Origin: Gracilinema caldarium
GTDB taxonomy: Bacteria; Spirochaetota; Spirochaetia; Treponematales; Breznakiellaceae
Reading direction: 5' to 3'
NCBI RefSeq assembly: GCF_029265695.1
Contig: NZ_JAJUHW010000029.1
Location: forward strand, 1 to 36,300
Length of the DNA stretch: 36,300 nucleotides
The notes under the pieces were generated by a model, which was not told the DNA's origin, made no database searches, and saw only the letters and a program-made list of their open reading frames with translations. Below, one piece after another: positions 15,108 through 26,640 of the stretch (position 1 is its first letter; the number at the start of each line of letters is the position of its first letter). A program made the translations under genes and the position numbers.

Positions 15108-16736
15108 TTAGTTCAAAAGGCCCCGTTCCAAGGCTTGTACTTGTGCCAGATTTTGGTCCCCTACCGTTTTAATATGGGTGATGATTTCATCAAATTCTTT
15201 ATAAGCTTCTGTAATAGCCTTAAGCTTTGCGGTGATTTCGGTGAGCAGGGTAAAAACTTGTTCTATATGGCCCATGTTTTCTGATACTTCGCTGTTTATT
15301 TCATTTATATGGTCGTTTGAGGTGCTCACTACTTCGCTGATTTTACCGCTGGCGGTAAGCATTTCCTGGGCTCCCAGGGCCATTTCAGAAAGACCCTGGA
15401 GTATTTCTTCGATAGCTTTAAAAACGTCTTCTATTTCTTTGACAAGACCAGTGCGGTTGTTGAGGTAGTCTTTTATGTAGGCAGCCGTATCGGATACGAC
15501 TTTAGTATTTTCTTTAAGTACCCCGATCATCGTTTCAGTTTGGCTGCGAGCTTCCGCAGAGAGTTTTCTTATTTCTTGAGCGATGACCGAAAAACCCTTG
15601 CCCGCACTCCCCGCATGGGCTGCTTCTACTGATGCATTCATGGCTAAAAGGTTTGTCGTATCCGCAATGGTAGTAATACCCTGGGCTGTTTGTAAAGATT
15701 TGGTTGAACTTGTGACAACCGCATCAAAACTCTTAAAAAGCTGGGACAGTTCTACGCTCTGGGCCGCAATCTTATTGAGAATGGCATTCATACTTTCGTG
15801 TTTTGCCTGAGCCCTGCTTGAAATGGACTGGATGGTAGTCCCGATTTGGGTTATTGCGGAACTTGTTTCCTGCAGAAATACATTATGTTCATTGGTAGCA
15901 TCCCGGAGTCCCGCTATATGGTTGGCCATATCGCGGTTTGAAGCAAGACTTGAATTAGTTCGGTCCTGTAAAATACTTATTTCCCGGTTTGCCTGTTCAA
16001 GGGATTCTTTAACTTGTTTATTTAAGAATTGGGATCGGTTTGCAGTCTGAACCAGGTTCTGGCCTAGATTAAAGGTTTTCCGAGTGTTTTCCAGCAGCTT
16101 GTTGAGCCGTTCAAGCTGTTTTTTGCTCTCTTCCACGCTTTTATTGGATATGGATATGATTGAACGATAAAAACCTTCAATAAACAATATGAAAATATTA
16201 ACTGGCACTAAGGTGAGTGTCAGCAAAATAAAAAGTGAAAAGATTTGTTTTGAAAATCCCCCTGCCGCCGGGACGATGTATAAAAGGGTGACGAGTATAA
16301 AACTCGCGGTATTTCCAATCATGTACAATATGATCTGTCGTTTGGAGAGGGACATGATGAGATTTACTATCGTTGCTGCCAATGTATAAGCTACCATGCG
16401 GTAAATACTGATTCCACCTTCTGCGGGGAGCAGAAGACCAACCCAGGTCGGATTTAACCACAGCCCAATAGAAGAAAGATAAGCTGCTAGAGTATGTTTG
16501 CCCCTTCCAAGCATGATGATAGAAACAATGAATGTTAAAGAAGTAAAAATCACTGAAAGGAGGAATAATAAGCTGTTTTGGGGGTTTTCGGCAAATCGAA
16601 CAATGGCACCGGTATTGAAATATAAAAACAATACAATGTTTCCATAAAACAAAATCGGAAGCTGCTTCTGAAGTCCTATGGGGAGCGAATTGAGATAATT
16701 TTCTTTTAAGATCAAATTAACGAGCTTTTTTTTCAA
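15108..16736 (-). CDS. Methyl-accepting chemotaxis protein with six TM segments
   Basis: A 542-residue receptor. The first 190 residues hold six hydrophobic segments (about 27-44, 56-76, 84-104, 112-130, 135-155, 165-187) with short loops and no periplasmic sensor domain; the remainder is a long coiled coil with the MCP signalling tip TTNLLAMNASVEAAHAGSAG and IAQEIRKLSAEA. It should couple to CheA/CheW and sense a membrane-borne or energy-related cue (inference). There is no HAMP motif I can identify. The start is TTG at 16736, with GGAGG seven bases upstream; that Shine-Dalgarno lies in the 3' arm of a hairpin. It may be co-transcribed with the PH-like gene upstream. Confidence 0.92.
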   Translation of the reverse strand: MKKKLVNLILKENYLNSLPIGLQKQLPILFYGNIVLFLYFNTGAIVRFAENPQNSLLFLLSVIFTSLTFIVSIIMLGRGKHTLAAYLSSIGLWLNPTWVGLLLPAEGGISIYRMVAYTLAATIVNLIMSLSKRQIILYMIGNTASFILVTLLYIVPAAGGFSKQIFSLFILLTLTLVPVNIFILFIEGFYRSIISISNKSVEESKKQLERLNKLLENTRKTFNLGQNLVQTANRSQFLNKQVKESLEQANREISILQDRTNSSLASNRDMANHIAGLRDATNEHNVFLQETSSAITQIGTTIQSISSRAQAKHESMNAILNKIAAQSVELSQLFKSFDAVVTSSTKSLQTAQGITTIADTTNLLAMNASVEAAHAGSAGKGFSVIAQEIRKLSAEARSQTETMIGVLKENTKVVSDTAAYIKDYLNNRTGLVKEIEDVFKAIEEILQGLSEMALGAQEMLTASGKISEVVSTSNDHINEINSEVSENMGHIEQVFTLLTEITAKLKAITEAYKEFDEIITHIKTVGDQNLAQVQALERGLLN

Positions 16737-16794: not shown

Positions 16795-17334
16795 TTAGGC
16801 TCCTTGTTCCAATACATGCCGTATTTGATCTTTCAGTTTGATGAGCTGTTCTTCCTTTCGTAAACTTACCGATTCTATGACGAGCCGCTCGGAATCTCTA
16901 AGGTATAGGATTAAATTGTTGTATTGTTTAGGCCGGAACAGTTTGCCTATCCCGTGCTGCGGTATGCTTTCTTTGTCATCGCCCCGTGTTTGCTGCATTG
17001 AGCCCTTTGTTGCCCGTTCCACCGAAATTTCATCAACCTGATCAAAGGGAATTTCTAATATTTTTGCCAGGAATAGAAGCCCAAAACGAAAACTAATTGT
17101 TTTGCGTATTGGATTAAAGACCCATCGCTCTTCATAAAAGATTCCAAAGAAAAGCAAAATAATAATTACAAGTCCAGGGACTCCAAAACCTGCTGGGGAA
17201 CCTTCTTGTACCGGGAGCAGCAAGGCAAACAGAACCACGCTGCCAATACAGAATAATACGAGCCTAATCCATAGGGGTACATGGAGTATTAGAATGCCCT
17301 TTTCTTTGGTGGTGCTTTTCAGCAAAAACTCCAT
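16795..17334 (-). CDS. Small membrane protein with PH-like C-terminal domain
   Basis: A 179-residue protein with two hydrophobic segments (about 22-41 and 50-67) and a cytoplasmic remainder. The segment FNPIRKTISFRFGLLFLAKILEIPFDQVDEISVE resembles the bacterial PH-like domains found after TM pairs, and the NNLILYLRDSERLVIES part fits the following beta strands. Function is unknown. It starts 3 bases after the HAD stop with GGAGG eight bases upstream, so it is translationally coupled to that gene. The family is assigned by fold impression, not by a clear motif. Confidence 0.75.
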   Translation of the reverse strand: MEFLLKSTTKEKGILILHVPLWIRLVLFCIGSVVLFALLLPVQEGSPAGFGVPGLVIIILLFFGIFYEERWVFNPIRKTISFRFGLLFLAKILEIPFDQVDEISVERATKGSMQQTRGDDKESIPQHGIGKLFRPKQYNNLILYLRDSERLVIESVSLRKEEQLIKLKDQIRHVLEQGA

Positions 17335-17337
17335 AAT

Positions 17338-17970
17338 CTACGCCTCCAGATACTTTTTTAGTTCAAAAATGCTGTTGATCCGTTCATGAGGATAGTCCTG
17401 GTGCAGGTTTTCCTCATCCAACAGGATGCCCCGGCCGCCGATATCTAAATATCCTTGTACATAGGAGGGGTAATCATCGATAAAGAGAACCTCCTGGGGG
17501 CTTTTCCCAAGGGTTTTCAAAACCCGATAGAAGACTTCCTTTTGGGGTTTCCCTTGCAGGCCATTCCAGCGGATATCGAAAATATGGGTAAAAATGCCCT
17601 GCAGTTCTAGCTTGTTGATGATTCGTTCTGCATGTTCCATGGGCGAATTGGTAAGAATTGCCTTAGGTTGTTTTAGACTGAGTAAAAAGTCCCGTACTTT
17701 TGGATCCGGATGCAAACCCGCTTCTTCTCCTGCGGGGTGTATGGCCCGGTAATAAGTATCGACATCGGTAAGGCCCTCTTCTGCCATGAGCCATTCCAGG
17801 GTGGTGCCATAGAAAGCGATTCGAGCTTGTCGTCTCTGAACTGCTTCTTCTTCTGAAATCCCAAGATACTGGGCCGTGAACTTTCTGATCCGCTCGCCCA
17901 CCGCTTTTTCGAGGCCGAAGCTGCTGGAATAGAGGGTGTTGTCGAGGTCAAAGAGTAAATAAGAAACCAT
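17338..17970 (-). CDS. HAD-family phosphatase, pyrimidine 5'-nucleotidase type
   Basis: A 210-residue HAD hydrolase. Motif I is FDLDNTLY with nucleophile D8 and D10, motif II is ILTNSP, motif III is the Lys in LQGKPQKEV, and motif IV is FIDDYPSYVQG. A helical cap lies between motifs I and II. The DNTLY...ILTNSP layout is that of the Sdt1/PhoG-like pyrimidine 5'-nucleotidase subgroup; substrate is therefore probably a nucleotide or small phosphate ester. No Shine-Dalgarno precedes ATG 17970, and a TATAAC lies 3 bases upstream, so the mRNA may be leaderless; no convincing -35 was found. Confidence 0.9.
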   Translation of the reverse strand: MVSYLLFDLDNTLYSSSFGLEKAVGERIRKFTAQYLGISEEEAVQRRQARIAFYGTTLEWLMAEEGLTDVDTYYRAIHPAGEEAGLHPDPKVRDFLLSLKQPKAILTNSPMEHAERIINKLELQGIFTHIFDIRWNGLQGKPQKEVFYRVLKTLGKSPQEVLFIDDYPSYVQGYLDIGGRGILLDEENLHQDYPHERINSIFELKKYLEA

Positions 17971-18031: not shown

Positions 18032-18625
18032 TCAATCCAAATTTTGGCGGGCCCTGTTTCTATCGATTCCTGCGATTATGTCGTTTATTTGTTCCGCAAG
18101 TTTACGCATTTCAGCTACGACGATTTTAAAGGACCGGCCTTTGTCGCCCAACTTTGCTGCCTGAATAGAACCGTTCAGAGAAAGGACTTTCATACGCTCC
18201 GCAATATCGATGATCTGATTTTCCATGTCCCGAACAATTTGCCGTTCCCGTTCGGTATCGATTTCTCGCTGTATCTCCTCTTTGACGGCAATTTCAGCCA
18301 TTTTTTGCAGGGGTTTTACAATTTGGGGGTCTCCGGCGATTCCAATGACCGCGATTCGCTGCCCGTTGAGTCTAATGACACCATTGTAGCCTGGTCTTGT
18401 TCCCTGCATGGTGGCCGCCATTTCGGGGGTGATGGCAATTTCGTCTACCTCGCCGTTCATGATCCGTTTGCCCCCCTCATGGACGGTGCCGATTCGATTA
18501 GGGTCATAGGAAGCGATAATGATGCCATTCTGATCTATAACATTGGCATCCGCGCCTGAAACAGCCTTTATATCTGATACAATCTTGCGAGCCAGTTCTG
18601 TTTTGATTGTGTATGCGCTTTTCAA
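18032..18625 (-). CDS. Small soluble sensor: sugar-diacid-recognition domain joined to a degenerate MCP signalling tip
   Basis: A 197-residue protein with no membrane segment. Residues 1 to about 120 resemble the putative sugar diacid recognition domain known from CdaR (PF05651): ADANVIDQNGIIIASYDPNRIGTVHEGG and GVIRLNGQRIAVIGIAGDP. A charged helix follows, then residues 140-185 resemble the hairpin tip of chemotaxis receptors (MKVLSLNGSIQAAKLGDKG, AEMRKLAEQI); the usual Glu of the tip is Gln here. The long methylation helices are missing. It could be a cytoplasmic mini-receptor for organic acids or an adaptor into receptor arrays. Start is TTG 18625 with GGAG eight bases upstream. Confidence 0.8.
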   Translation of the reverse strand: MKSAYTIKTELARKIVSDIKAVSGADANVIDQNGIIIASYDPNRIGTVHEGGKRIMNGEVDEIAITPEMAATMQGTRPGYNGVIRLNGQRIAVIGIAGDPQIVKPLQKMAEIAVKEEIQREIDTERERQIVRDMENQIIDIAERMKVLSLNGSIQAAKLGDKGRSFKIVVAEMRKLAEQINDIIAGIDRNRARQNLD

Positions 18626-18820: not shown

Positions 18821-19891
18821 TTAGAACCGTATGCTGCCTTTAATCATGGGGCCGTAATGAACCAGGTAAACCGAAGGAGATGCATCTACATAACCGCTTT
18901 CTACTGGCCCTTTGGGTGTAATACAGGTGAGTGTTTGGCCCCCAATGTTGTAACCGATACCAATACCCACATGGAAGCGTTTTATATGCTGCACAAACTG
19001 AATCCCTAGGGTGAGGTTGTAATCTACCATCATGGCAATCTGGGTAGCGCTCCACAAGGTGCGGTTTCCGTTTGCTGCTTCTACAATAGCTTTTACCTGG
19101 TTGCTGATTTCCGATGTGCCTACCCCAAAACGATCCTGGGTCCATGCCCAGAAAGAAAAGCCCTGGAAGGAGCCGAAAATACCCTTTTGAAATAGAGCAT
19201 CATGAAGGGTATCGAAACCAAAAAGAAAGGAATAAATAGAAAATTTCATGTCCGGCTGGTAAAAGGAAACCACCGGAGCCCACCAAACCGATTCCAAATA
19301 ATCGTTCCACACAAGGCAGTTAATCTGTACGGGTAATGAATAGGAGCTATACCCGATTCCGTAATACAGTCCCTTAGGAGAGGCATACAACAGGTCAATG
19401 TTAAGTAACTGGTTATCAAAATCGACAGAGTCGGGTAGGCCTGGTATTGTCTCTCCAAGCCATTCGGCGGTTCCCTTAAGACGGGAATATTCCACCCGGG
19501 CTTCAAATACATCAATATTAAGGAACCCCATAAAATGGTTGATGTGACCGATGAGGTTGTTGTCGGTTTTAAGCGTAGCGCCCAGACCTAGGTTAAGTTT
19601 TTTGAAAAAGAGGCCTCCTTCATAAATACTGCTCAGTGTCTGTTCCATGCTGACTTTGAACTTGTTAACCCGGGGTGTGTCGTATCCAAAGAACTCGTCG
19701 GAGAGGGCATCCCAGTCGCCTGAGGCCCAGTTGTTCCAGGGGAGGATGGCAATACTGCCATAACTGGAAAAATAATCGACCAGTTTATTGGCAGCCTCCT
19801 GTTGGATGGTGTTTTGTGCAGATGCTGGAAGGATCGAAATGACAAATAATAGAAAAAAAAGACTGAGCCGGTTGCATCTTATAGTGTTCAT
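18821..19891 (-). CDS. Secreted outer-membrane-type beta-barrel protein
   Basis: A 356-residue protein with a signal peptide: basic start, hydrophobic core FFLLFVISIL and a likely cut after ASA at residue 25. The mature part is rich in Gly and aromatic residues in alternating patterns (GLGATLKTD, GLYYGIGYSSYSLPV, HVGIGIGYNIGG) and ends in ...KGSIRF with a terminal Phe, as in outer-membrane barrels. I do not recognise the family. Start: ATG 19891 has an AAGGGGG nine bases upstream; the TTG at 19900 would touch that site and is rejected. It follows the GH9 gene by 51 bases and has its own promoter candidate. Confidence 0.82.
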   Translation of the reverse strand: MNTIRCNRLSLFFLLFVISILPASAQNTIQQEAANKLVDYFSSYGSIAILPWNNWASGDWDALSDEFFGYDTPRVNKFKVSMEQTLSSIYEGGLFFKKLNLGLGATLKTDNNLIGHINHFMGFLNIDVFEARVEYSRLKGTAEWLGETIPGLPDSVDFDNQLLNIDLLYASPKGLYYGIGYSSYSLPVQINCLVWNDYLESVWWAPVVSFYQPDMKFSIYSFLFGFDTLHDALFQKGIFGSFQGFSFWAWTQDRFGVGTSEISNQVKAIVEAANGNRTLWSATQIAMMVDYNLTLGIQFVQHIKRFHVGIGIGYNIGGQTLTCITPKGPVESGYVDASPSVYLVHYGPMIKGSIRF

Positions 19892-19918
19892 TATGAGCAA
19901 CCCCCTTTTATGAAATAA

Positions 19919-19946
19919 AGTATAGTGCGGGAGAGGGGAACTTCAA
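19919..19946 (-). promoter_or_regulatory. Promoter candidate of the outer-membrane-type gene
   Basis: TTGAAG (19946 to 19941), 16 bases, TATACT (19924 to 19919) on the minus strand, with a leader of about 20 bases. The -35 touches the stop codon of the GH9 gene, so this gene could be made both alone and from a GH9 read-through mRNA. Confidence 0.5.
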
Positions 19947-21694
19947 GCTCGGTATGCCTGGTCCAGAAACGAAGCAACCCATGCAAGGGGGGCATTCCAG
20001 TTTATGGCAACCTCGTTTGTCGCATAGGACCCAATATCATCAATATAGCGATAGGGAATAGGCCGTTTTGCAAGTTCCCACTGTGCCGCTGCAGGGTCCT
20101 GTATTTGGGCGTTGGGTCCGCCGCAAAGAGCTCCGGGCGGTGGCGGCGGATAGCCCGCTGCCGGATCGTTCGCCCATACGCGATGGTGGGGATGGGTAAG
20201 CGAATCGGTGCCGTAGCCAGACACGAAACTTTTTCTGAGCCCATTATAGCCTAATATATAATCCATGGTTCTGCTGACCGCAGCGAGGTACCGTGGGTCG
20301 CCAGAAATATCGTAGGCCAGGGCCATAATGATAGCGTTATTCAAGGTCACCGAGTTGGATCCCCAAACAAAACCAGAGGCGTCCATGGGGATGCCAAAAC
20401 CGCTTGCAGCCTGGATTGCTTCGTAGCGGGCAGCTGTCTGTACGATCTGGTTCCGGATACGGTCCCGTTCGGTTTTGGAGAGGGATGTCTCCGCAATTGC
20501 GAGCGTAATGCTTCCCAGCGCCGCGGTGTCAGCCCAGCTCATAGAAGCAGCCCTGTTGTCATGAAGACCAGGGAAGGATGCAAAATAGGTTGATGAACGG
20601 ATGAACTGTTCGTATTCAGCCCTTCCTGTGGTTGCATAGAGTTCACAGGCGGCCCAGTACCATTCGTCCTGAATTTCGGTGTCGTCATAGTTGCCGCCCC
20701 CCTCTCCGGGAACATTTCCCGCGATCAGGACCGGATTTGCCCCTGCGGCCTTCCATGCCCGTTCTGCAGCGGTAAGACAGCGCTCCGCAAATGAACGGTC
20801 GTAGGGCGACCAGAGCCTGGCTGCCTGGGCTGCGCAGGCGGCCAGGTTAAGGGTTGCGGCTGTGGTGGGCTCGTAGACATAGCGGCCCCAGGCTGCGCCA
20901 TCCTGCATGTCATTGTTGTTATCGATATAAGTAGGAAGTGTTGCCGGCACTCCGGACCATTTCCGGTCATGGAGCTTATGGAAAACCATGCCGCTCAAGG
21001 CGTTTCCTTGAGGGATCTGCATGCGAAGCATGAATTCCAGTTCCCAGCGAGTTTCGTCCAGTATGTCGGGGATACCGTTCCCGTTTTCCGGGATCGGCAG
21101 GTCGCCGTCAGAAAAGGCCTGGGGAGAGCTTTCAAAGGCATTTTGGAGGGTCCATACCGAAATGCCTCCGTTGACCACATACTTACCAAAGTCCCCCGCA
21201 TCGTACCAGCCGCCAGAGCCATTAATCTTAAAGGGAAAGCTGTCCCATTTTTTGCCCTGCGCGTCCGTACCTGCAAAGGCGCGGATATCCGCGTCACTTA
21301 CATGACTCGCAGGCCGTGCCCAGGTTTTTCCTGCGTATGCTTCGGCCAGTTCTATGCCGCTCCGCATGAGGTAAAAGAAATGGAGCGCATCATGGGTGAG
21401 GGCTGCATAGAGGTCTTTACTTATTATAAAAGGATCACTCTCCTTCTCGCCGATACGAATCCGATATGTTCCCGGTCTTGTAAAGAAGCTGAAATCTGCC
21501 CGGTGCAGCCTGCTGCCGCTCAAGGAATCGATAAAGGCTGGGATCGTCTTCCCGCTTGCCTGTACGGTTCCGGTCATCGTATCTAAAAGTGTCCAAACGA
21601 AGGGACCCGGATCATCTGCTGTAAGAGATGCATATTTAGGGGCTCCGGTGGGGTAGCCGTACTGATTGTAACTGAGGCTTACGCTTGTATTCAT
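19943..21694 (-). CDS. Glycoside hydrolase family 9 with N-terminal Ig-like domain, no signal peptide
   Basis: A 583-residue GH9 enzyme. Residues 1-95 are the cellulase N-terminal Ig-like domain (CelD_N), and an (alpha/alpha)6 barrel follows. Catalytic features are D165/D168 in GGWYDAGDFGKY, HHR at 503-505 and the acid Glu E561 in TNEVAINWNAPL. The N-terminus MNTSVSLSYNQYGYP begins at once with the Ig domain, so there is no export signal; cytoplasmic GH9 enzymes of this shape are often exo-acting glucosidases or glucosaminidases on short oligosaccharides rather than endo-cellulases. AAGGA seven bases before the ATG. The promoter area contains palindromes. Confidence 0.93.
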   Translation of the reverse strand: MNTSVSLSYNQYGYPTGAPKYASLTADDPGPFVWTLLDTMTGTVQASGKTIPAFIDSLSGSRLHRADFSFFTRPGTYRIRIGEKESDPFIISKDLYAALTHDALHFFYLMRSGIELAEAYAGKTWARPASHVSDADIRAFAGTDAQGKKWDSFPFKINGSGGWYDAGDFGKYVVNGGISVWTLQNAFESSPQAFSDGDLPIPENGNGIPDILDETRWELEFMLRMQIPQGNALSGMVFHKLHDRKWSGVPATLPTYIDNNNDMQDGAAWGRYVYEPTTAATLNLAACAAQAARLWSPYDRSFAERCLTAAERAWKAAGANPVLIAGNVPGEGGGNYDDTEIQDEWYWAACELYATTGRAEYEQFIRSSTYFASFPGLHDNRAASMSWADTAALGSITLAIAETSLSKTERDRIRNQIVQTAARYEAIQAASGFGIPMDASGFVWGSNSVTLNNAIIMALAYDISGDPRYLAAVSRTMDYILGYNGLRKSFVSGYGTDSLTHPHHRVWANDPAAGYPPPPPGALCGGPNAQIQDPAAAQWELAKRPIPYRYIDDIGSYATNEVAINWNAPLAWVASFLDQAYRA

Positions 21695-23590: not shown

Positions 23591-24637
23591 GTGGCGATAC
23601 TGCTTTCTACGGTTGCTGAGGACATTGAATGGGCTGCCAGAGCTATTCGGGAAGGTAAACTGGTAGCCTTTCCTACTGAGACGGTTTATGGTCTTGGAGG
23701 CCAGGCGACCAATACCGCTGCCCTGGCCCGGATTTTCGAGGCGAAGCGGCGGCCTACCTTTGACCCCCTTATCGTGCATATCGCTGCGAGGGAACAATTA
23801 TCAGATGTGGCGGACCTTGCCCTGCTCAGTGAGAAACGCCGCAATCTTGTACAGCGCCTGGCAGAAAACCTTTGGCCCGGGCCCCTGACCCTGATTCTGC
23901 CAAAACAAAACAGCATCCCCGATCTAGCTACGAGCGGTCTCGCTACCGTTGCGGTCCGTCTCCCGGCTCATCCGGTAGCCCGGGACCTGATCCGCCGTGC
24001 GGGGGTTCCGGTGGCTGCGCCGAGCGCCAATCCCTTCGGATACCTGAGCCCAACCAAGGCAGAGCATGTGCTCAAGCAGCTTGGGGACCGGGTCGATTTT
24101 ATTATCGATGGGGGTAAATGCGAAGTTGGTGTTGAGTCTACCGTGCTGGACCTGAGCGGCGATACCATCACCATCATGCGCCCCGGCGGTCTATCCCGTG
24201 AACGGATAGAATCACTTATCGGTCCGGTGACCCATATTGATAGAACCACGAGCCATCCTACAGCTCCGGGGCAGCTTCCGAGTCACTATGCTCCCCGGGC
24301 ATCTCTGAGCCTGTACCCGCTCGGGGCTATTCCAGTAGCTATTCCCGAATTGCCGCAGCAAAGGCTGGCCTGTCTCTTTTTTGACGAAACAAGCCGCAGC
24401 CGTTGGCTGGCTGACTTTATCCGGACTTTCCCCGGTAAGGATGCGCCGGTAACCCGTGTGCTTGCTCCTTCGTCATTGCTCCTCGAGGCTGCAGCTAATC
24501 TCTTTGATATACTGCACGAACTGGATGCCCTCGGTGTGGATAGAATCCTTGCAGAACGGGTTCCTGACCGGGACCTGGGGCCTGCTATTAACGATCGGCT
24601 CTACAAGGCCCGGGGCGAGGCAAAAGAAAGCCGCTAG
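23591..24637 (+). CDS. Threonylcarbamoyl-AMP synthase, Sua5 type
   Basis: A 348-residue enzyme making threonylcarbamoyl-AMP from threonine, bicarbonate and ATP for the t6A37 modification of tRNAs that read ANN codons. The YrdC domain fills the first 205 residues (FPTETVYGLGGQA, KRRPTFDPL, APSANPFG, VESTVLDL), followed by the C-terminal Sua5 domain with the linker SHYAPRASL, so this is the long Sua5 form rather than the short TsaC. The start is GTG 23591, with AAGG seven bases upstream. The stop codon TAG overlaps the convergent kinase stop in the palindrome CTAG. Confidence 0.94.
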   Translation: MAILLSTVAEDIEWAARAIREGKLVAFPTETVYGLGGQATNTAALARIFEAKRRPTFDPLIVHIAAREQLSDVADLALLSEKRRNLVQRLAENLWPGPLTLILPKQNSIPDLATSGLATVAVRLPAHPVARDLIRRAGVPVAAPSANPFGYLSPTKAEHVLKQLGDRVDFIIDGGKCEVGVESTVLDLSGDTITIMRPGGLSRERIESLIGPVTHIDRTTSHPTAPGQLPSHYAPRASLSLYPLGAIPVAIPELPQQRLACLFFDETSRSRWLADFIRTFPGKDAPVTRVLAPSSLLLEAAANLFDILHELDALGVDRILAERVPDRDLGPAINDRLYKARGEAKESR

Positions 24638-26586
24638 TCGGTGCTAATATAGTCAGAAAATTCATCATCCACCGATATTAAAAGATCTCCTGTCTCTTCG
24701 TCGCCCAGGCGGGCAACAGCTCCTAAAGTGCGGGGCCGGCCCGTATCAAGGTCCAGTTTTCCCCGCCGCCAGGTGGTTTCGTAAAAGAGGAGCTTCTTTG
24801 TTTCGGGAATTCCCATTTGGATAAGCCGTTCCGCCCCGGCTCGGATCAGGGTTGCTTTTTTTTGGCAGTCCTGAGAGTTACCCAATTCCCATACACCAAG
24901 TTGGATAGGATTCGCCGGATTCTGCACATCTCCGAAAAACTCGCCCCGAAGGCACCGGTCCCGGCTGCTCCCCAAATAGGGTACAAAGTCTGCGTGTTCC
25001 GCAAGCTTCCGGTCCGTGGCGCCGAAATGACCTGTGGCCGGGTCCAGGGTAAAAATGACGGTTCGCTCCACCGCCTGGCCGTAAGCCTTAAACATAATGC
25101 CCTGTAATTCGCCGTTTCGGTTCAAGGTTTGCGTAATGGTATCTTCCCGTTTTAAGATACGGACCGCTTCTAAAAGCCAAAGCCTGAGTTCTGCCGTATC
25201 GGTTTTGTAATTTTCCAGGTCTTCCCGGAATGCAGCGAGGGATATGGACTCATAGCGGCAGGACAGGAAGGACCGGTAGATATCCCGCACATTATTTTTA
25301 CGGGCGAATTGCAGGATCAGGTCCCAAATAAGGATTTCGAGCTTTTTGCACCGCCAAATATAGGCAGCGATTTCTGCCTTATCGGCGTTTACCTTCGGTG
25401 CATCAGCGGCGCTCATGGCCTTGAATTCGGCGAGCCTTGTTTCCAGGGCCCTTAGCTCACTTTCTTCCCGCTGTTCAGCCTTAGGGAGCCGGATAATCCA
25501 CCGGGTCCCCTTCCCCGGCTCGCTGTGGACCGAAATGTTTTCAGTGCCAAAGGCTGCGTATATTTGCCGTGTCCCCTGGCCTTCTCCCATGTTTGCCTTG
25601 GTGGTAATTCCCACAAACTGGGGCCGCCCGTCGGGGCCAACCTGCAGTTTGTTTTTATCAATACCAATTCCATTGTCTTCTACTGTAAGGAGTATCCAGG
25701 GGCTCACATCCTGCAGGGAAATAGAAAGGAGCCCCGGCCGGTCTGCGGCCTTTATGGCGTCCAGAGCGTTGGAGACCAGGTTCACGATAGCCCGGGCTGC
25801 TTCCAGGTAGTGGGCCCGTGCTTCCCCCACATTGGGCGCAAAGCGGAGCACCAGTTCACAGTTTACCGGCGAATGTTCTACCATGGGAATGATACGGTCA
25901 ATAATGAGTTCTTTAAGATTGATGGTCCTGAATCGCTGAACCGAATCGCGGAAAAGGTTGAGGGTGTTAACCAGGGCTGTTGTTTCTCGATTGATGTCCT
26001 CGATAATACGGGAACAGTTTTCTGCTGTAAGTGCCCCGGCCATATCGGCAATGAGCCTGATTGCCTTTTTTGCATCATGCCGGATTTTTCCCAGTTCATC
26101 CGCCGTGCCGGAACTGATGCCGATTTTAGGAATCGTTTCGCGAATGCTGCGGGCTTCCCCTTCCAGACGGATAAAGTTGAGGGCCCGCCAGTTTAAACGT
26201 TCCTTTTCGGCAAAACCGCGGCGCTTGTAAAACATCAATATTTCCGCCTGCCGTTCCCAGATATAAAGATCGATGACAGCCTCTTCCGGGGCTATCGATG
26301 CAAGGTGGGCCAGAAAGGCTGAACCAATTCCCTTGCTGCGGCCAAAGGGGCTGGTAACCTGCTTGTAAATATGGAGCCGTTTTTTCTCCGGGTCTGACCA
26401 GACTTCTATAAAACCAAGAATCTCCCGTTCCTCTTCCCATACGAAGGAATACTGGTAATCCTTCTCGAGCCGCTCATCCACCGCATAGGGGGTTGGGATG
26501 ATGAAACTATCGATGTTCAGGCTGGGGTTCCGGCGGATGCGGTCCTCCAGTTCTCGGTTAAAAGGTTTGATATACAGGCTCGTCAT
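24634..26586 (-). CDS. GNAT acetyltransferase-histidine kinase fusion with novel C-terminal domain
   Basis: A 650-residue soluble protein of unusual build. Residues 1-140 look like a GNAT domain (GRSKGIGSAFLAHL acetyl-CoA loop, MFYKRRGFAEKERLN). Residues 165-235 resemble a dimerisation/phosphoacceptor helix pair with H170 in GKIRHDAKKAI. Residues 250-365 are a HATPase_c domain: N box VNLVSNALDAI, G1 DNGIGID, G2 GEGQGTRQIYAAFG and a final GKGTRWIIRL. The last 250 residues, with FTLDPATGHFGATDR and LFYETTWRRGKLDLDTGRP, match nothing I recognise. There is no TM segment and no partner response regulator beside it. ATG 26586 is preferred to the TTG at 26613, which has no Shine-Dalgarno, though GAAAG before the ATG is also weak. 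Confidence 0.85.
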   Translation of the reverse strand: MTSLYIKPFNRELEDRIRRNPSLNIDSFIIPTPYAVDERLEKDYQYSFVWEEEREILGFIEVWSDPEKKRLHIYKQVTSPFGRSKGIGSAFLAHLASIAPEEAVIDLYIWERQAEILMFYKRRGFAEKERLNWRALNFIRLEGEARSIRETIPKIGISSGTADELGKIRHDAKKAIRLIADMAGALTAENCSRIIEDINRETTALVNTLNLFRDSVQRFRTINLKELIIDRIIPMVEHSPVNCELVLRFAPNVGEARAHYLEAARAIVNLVSNALDAIKAADRPGLLSISLQDVSPWILLTVEDNGIGIDKNKLQVGPDGRPQFVGITTKANMGEGQGTRQIYAAFGTENISVHSEPGKGTRWIIRLPKAEQREESELRALETRLAEFKAMSAADAPKVNADKAEIAAYIWRCKKLEILIWDLILQFARKNNVRDIYRSFLSCRYESISLAAFREDLENYKTDTAELRLWLLEAVRILKREDTITQTLNRNGELQGIMFKAYGQAVERTVIFTLDPATGHFGATDRKLAEHADFVPYLGSSRDRCLRGEFFGDVQNPANPIQLGVWELGNSQDCQKKATLIRAGAERLIQMGIPETKKLLFYETTWRRGKLDLDTGRPRTLGAVARLGDEETGDLLISVDDEFSDYISTD

Positions 26587-26640
26587 GGTTCTACTTTCTG
26601 CGCCTTGCTGCAAGCTGTCAAGGGAATTTTTTAGTTCCTA

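Follow-up and report, generated by a model that had tools for sequence, protein, structure and literature searches.

The window, a stretch of 36,300 nucleotides from Gracilinema caldarium, carries on its reverse strand a short gene, here called the mini-receptor gene, whose product consists of a sensor domain followed by the tip of a chemotaxis receptor (MCP) (Table 1). An initial annotation had proposed a CdaR-like diacid-recognition domain joined to a bare receptor tip, devoid of methylation helices and of a membrane anchor, and this description was borne out. The Diacid_rec domain (PF05651) scored 104.5 bits against a curated cut-off of 23.6. The MCPsignal domain (PF00015) scored 36.8 bits (4.6e-9) against a cut-off of 34.6, and the match was confined to positions 31-86 of the 172 positions of the profile, corresponding to the receptor tip only. 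Both domains were also above their curated cut-offs in all six of the other family members tested. No complete MCP signalling domain with methylation helices was detected in the mini-receptor by Pfam or by a methylation consensus check, its sequence contains no methylation-site consensus, and no membrane span is apparent, the highest hydropathy over 19 residues being 0.72. Pfam gave no match to HTH_30, the C-terminal helix-turn-helix of CdaR; the C-terminus is instead occupied by the MCP tip. In the AlphaFold2 model the globular part of the sensor spans residues 9-97, mostly with pLDDT >90. A GGAG ribosome-binding site lies a few bases 5' of the TTG codon, and the orthologues in three congeners share both the start position and the GGAG motif. 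Judged from its sequence, the mini-receptor is thus a small soluble spirochaete protein in which a Diacid_rec sensor is combined with no more of a chemotaxis receptor than its contact end.

Table 1. Position of the mini-receptor gene, its domains and its neighbours in the window.
Feature	Position	Strand	Remarks
Mini-receptor gene	18032..18625	(-)	197 aa, TTG start; assigned from the ORF and from orthologues of about the same length in further spirochaetes
Diacid_rec (Cache/GAF-like) sensor domain	18218..18604	(-)	Residues 8-136; PF05651, 4.6e-30
MCP tip segment	18083..18214	(-)	Residues 138-181; PF00015, family alignment, shuffle test, substitution rates
HAD-family hydrolase	17338..17970	(-)	Directly downstream of the mini-receptor gene; nearest to pyrimidine 5'-nucleotidase
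Membrane-associated protein, unknown family	16795..17334	(-)	179 aa; gene after the HAD hydrolase
Full MCP	15108..16736	(-)	542 aa; Pfam; missing from the syntenic place in G001

The order mini-receptor, HAD hydrolase, 179-aa protein is kept in the congeners G001 and G003. The full MCP gene to which the initial annotation had drawn attention is indeed present nearby on the same strand, but its proximity is not conserved: in G001 the syntenic stretch passes directly into leuS. The nearby MCP was therefore rejected as a fixed partner of the mini-receptor. Two further genes of the window deserve mention in their own right. The one at 18821-19900 (-) encodes a protein of 359 aa that starts in the manner of a signal peptide and has no match in Pfam, and adjoins a gene (19943-21694) whose G001 homologue matches Glyco_hydro_9. 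The one at 24634-26613 (-) encodes a 659-aa protein in which an N-terminal GNAT acetyltransferase precedes a histidine-kinase-type ATPase, an unusual combination.

The receptor tip and its conservation

Is the C-terminal tail of the mini-receptor a true receptor tip, or a coiled coil that resembles one by chance? The tail was scored against a profile (A2) made from 12 canonical receptor tips of the window's own genome. It reached 47.8 bits, compared to maxima of 18.8 bits for heptad-preserving shuffles of the tail (n = 20,000), 13.7 bits for plain shuffles (n = 20,000) and 12.4 bits for natural coiled-coil segments taken from the MCPs of the genome (n = 112). The possibility, raised in the initial annotation, that the tail scores no better than a random coiled coil was rejected on the basis of these values. 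No single receptor of the genome stood out as a match to the tip. The scores were nearly level, with the ODP-coupled receptor (L004) and a dCache-like protein (L003) slightly ahead, and an assignment of the tip to one CheA cluster via a special receptor match was therefore rejected as well. In the L003 protein (L003:1144-2418, 424 aa) the usual order is inverted, the MCP signalling domain preceding a Cache-like sensor, and the tip is a variant one that contains KFGDKGRAF; a LuxR-type response regulator is encoded upstream of its gene. Another receptor-like protein (L016:763-2172) is very divergent, with a SLNLSIEASKV tip and an MCPsignal match below the cut-off, and two ORFs of the contig that holds it (C71), of 774 aa and 167 aa, match the CheW domain.

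The tip departs from the consensus in a characteristic way. Gln155 aligns with the Glu (Tsr E385 position) that is invariant in 12/12 canonical tips of the genome, a replacement already pointed out in the initial annotation, and the same position is occupied by Gln, Ile or Leu in all members of the family. The canonical QTN is lost as well. The partner Arg/Lys and the hydrophobic residues are kept. Gly160 and Gly163, which fall at the positions of the hairpin turn, are invariant in a ten-member alignment, together with Asn151, Gly152, Lys167, Glu172 and Met173. The best-conserved stretch coincides with the receptor tip and includes the Asn, the two turn glycines, a Phe and an EMR-L motif.

A search of whole Spirochaetota genomes for orthologues of similar length, as suggested in the initial annotation, revealed 16 loci in 15 genomes, spread over six genera of the window's order and two more families of the class, and nearly all of them encode proteins of ~178-214 aa. 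A scan of genome contigs with short exact patterns gave matches in spirochaetes only, and among the inspected matches on sequenced plasmids there was no close relative, only CdaR-type regulators and one full-length MCP. Substitution rates (Nei-Gojobori) were lowest in the tip, with pN of 0.01-0.04 and pS near saturation in most pairs; in the same pairs pN rose to 0.22 in the sensor (in the most distant pair) and 0.33 in the linker. By these rates, no part of the mini-receptor is better conserved than the tip, and it is here that purifying selection on the protein is strongest. They also bear on the reading of the gene as a decaying or truncated MCP gene, to which its very short length and the missing consensus residues might seem to point. 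Length and layout are alike across several families, the ribosome-binding site is conserved and the tip is under strong purifying selection. Decay of a full receptor was rejected given the conserved length and the substitution rates, and we regard it as extremely improbable. The word "degenerate", by which the tip had been described, is thus apt for its departure from the consensus, but not as a sign of decay, since the replacement of Glu is family-wide and selection is strongest precisely here; on this sequence evidence the tip is specialised.

AlphaFold2, run on the family alignment, predicted residues 100-196 as a single unbroken helix with no hairpin, of which ~63 residues precede Gly163 and 34 follow it. 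As a control, a canonical tip that was given identical boundaries and an alignment about as shallow was predicted as a hairpin, ~1 A from solved receptors. The canonical receptor hairpin is richly represented in the AlphaFold training data, and the mini-receptor has invariant glycines at both turn positions, so the straight-helix model is not decisive, yet it lowers our confidence that the tip adopts the standard hairpin. For the sensor part, Foldseek and VIA-align matched CodY GAF, SpoVT, CitA, IclR and others, matches that show no more than a shared GAF/PAS/Cache-like fold, and a sequence search found no solved Diacid_rec structure. For the model of the mini-receptor, the Foldseek and VIA-align lists contained no MCP hairpin except a model of YfmS, with an uninformative rmsd of 32.9 A. 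In receptor trimers, E385 and R388' form an inter-dimer ionic lock (PMC8144572). The Glu lost from the mini-receptor is the one that forms this lock, and the protein may therefore fail to build ordinary trimers of dimers.

Neighbouring genes and the candidate ligand

At five loci, which belong to two other families (G041, G050, G427, G443 and G459), the mini-receptor gene directly adjoins that of a putative glycerate 2-kinase. This kinase is composed of DUF4147 and MOFRL, and its best NCBIfam match is glycerate 2-kinase, below the equivalog cut-off. In G041, G427 and G459 the genes for a CdaR-type regulator, a GntP permease, a TPR protein, the kinase and the mini-receptor follow on one strand, an operon-like arrangement with glycerate genes that is found in three lineages; in G459 the ORFs of the kinase and the mini-receptor overlap by four bases. 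The TPR repeats and the glycerate 2-kinase, separate neighbours in G427 and G459, are fused in the G041 form (L061:6206-8296). No MOFRL kinase was found in the window genome. The sole other Diacid_rec protein found there is a CdaR-type regulator, whose gene immediately precedes that of a glycerate kinase of the Gly_kinase family (PF02595). A glycerate kinase match, from either of the two families, was present in 13/13 genomes with the mini-receptor at the level of the order (including G435, with a partial match below the cut-off), compared to 136/281 of the others. The Fisher test for this co-occurrence (p 1.9e-4) ignores shared ancestry and the association is much weaker by genus, and gene adjacency is for this reason the stronger evidence.

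The initial annotation had suggested dicarboxylates and sugar acids as ligands. With the conserved gene neighbours taken into account, the candidates narrow to glycerate or a similar 2-hydroxy acid. The regulator CdaR itself responds in E. coli to glucarate, galactarate and glycerate (PMC4551912). The sensor of the mini-receptor departs from CdaR at several positions that are fixed among the four regulators compared, so its ligand may be different from that of CdaR. That the gene does not adjoin glycerate genes in the window's own genus also weighs against the glycerate link.

A possible role in chemotaxis and relation to known systems

We put at roughly 0.5 the probability that the mini-receptor is a conserved soluble chemoreceptor-like protein, which senses glycerate or a near hydroxy acid in the cytosol and feeds into CheA/CheW arrays through its tip. 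The ligand of the Diacid_rec domain would be intracellular glycerate or a small hydroxy acid closely related to it, and of an MCP only the kinase-contact tip would follow, connected to this sensor by a helix. At the base of the array, a dimer of the mini-receptor could then offer its tips to CheW/CheA or to trimers of receptors; ligand binding would alter kinase activity there, and the nutrient state of the cell interior would join the signals that come from the membrane receptors. In a protein devoid of methylation helices, this input would be unadapted and tonic. We infer the ligand, the dimerisation, the binding of CheA/CheW and the direction of the effect. In the window genome the CheW domain was matched eight times, three times in ORFs of CheA size. 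The suggestion that the protein may be a soluble input into arrays fits its sequence, its lack of an anchor, these homologues, and what has been published on soluble receptors in Treponema denticola and Bacillus subtilis. A further-reaching proposal is that of a distinct plug-in chemosensory class, with a stalkless tip whose trimer-lock Glu was lost by selection, encoded among glycerate genes, by which an intracellular catabolic metabolite sets CheA activity directly rather than by acting as a full receptor. This proposal is tentative, and we consider it somewhat doubtful.

Two other readings have to be weighed against the preferred one. The tail may be a helix for dimerisation or for binding a partner such as glycerate kinase or CdaR, in which case the protein would tune glycerate metabolism and have no part in chemotaxis. 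The clustering of the gene with those for glycerate kinase, GntP and CdaR is in line with this, as are the straight helix in the model and the loss of the canonical QTN and Glu. However, the best-conserved stretch corresponds exactly to the receptor tip, and in the window genus the gene lies away from glycerate genes and is equally conserved, and we find this reading unlikely. The mini-receptor could also be a decoy or brake, whose tip binds CheW/CheA or receptor dimers without forming a signalling core unit, and which caps or dilutes the arrays depending on the acid ligand. The exchange of Glu in every member, with the hydrophobic and turn residues kept, is what one might expect of such a protein, all the more so as this Glu takes part in the lock described above; retention of the partner Arg/Lys and of the turn glycines speaks against it, and sequence alone cannot separate a brake from an activator. 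We judge a brake to be rather unlikely too. Should the preferred reading, a soluble input into the arrays, be true, few natural parts that can address chemoreceptor arrays would be smaller than the mini-receptor, and swimming behaviour would be coupled to one metabolic operon. In this protein nature has set up a test of how little of a receptor suffices for contact with CheA/CheW, and of the purpose of the nearly universal Glu of the tip.

Soluble receptors have been described before. In T. denticola, CheA is modulated by TDE2496, a receptor that has neither transmembrane nor sensing modules (PMC7666581). This ODP-coupled protein resembles the mini-receptor in being a soluble spirochaete MCP with no membrane anchor, but has no sensor domain of its own, and its homologue in the window genome (287 aa) has retained more of the signalling domain and ends in a tip of the canonical kind (IEAAR). 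That genome's counterpart of the oxygen-sensing ODP-TDE2496 pair is a gene for an ODP-family protein with one for a soluble MCP behind it (L004:356-2007). YfmS of B. subtilis is another short soluble chemoreceptor (PMC7542364), for which the Foldseek match is an integrative model with CheW (9a72). With 286 aa it is larger than the mini-receptor, to which it gave no match in sequence searches; against the canonical hairpin control it superimposed at 0.3 A over 76 columns, with 45% identity. The CdaR-family transcription factors share the Diacid_rec domain, including a core motif common to both, but their output is the DNA-binding HTH_30 and not an MCP tip. Diacid_rec chemoreceptors were found by us in only one literature source, a survey of Cache domains that lists 30 Diacid_rec-MCP proteins and describes Diacid_rec as principally intracellular (PMC4822843). 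One protein of this architecture, WP_014250035.1 of Azospirillum lipoferum, likewise has an intracellular Diacid_rec domain before an MCP signalling domain, but it is 408 aa long, with a long MCP domain and a canonical IEAARAGEAGRGF tip, whereas the spirochaete mini-receptors keep only ~45-60 residues of the tip and lack the Glu. Fusions of Diacid_rec to MCP domains are thus already known, and it is the conserved tip-only form that is new.
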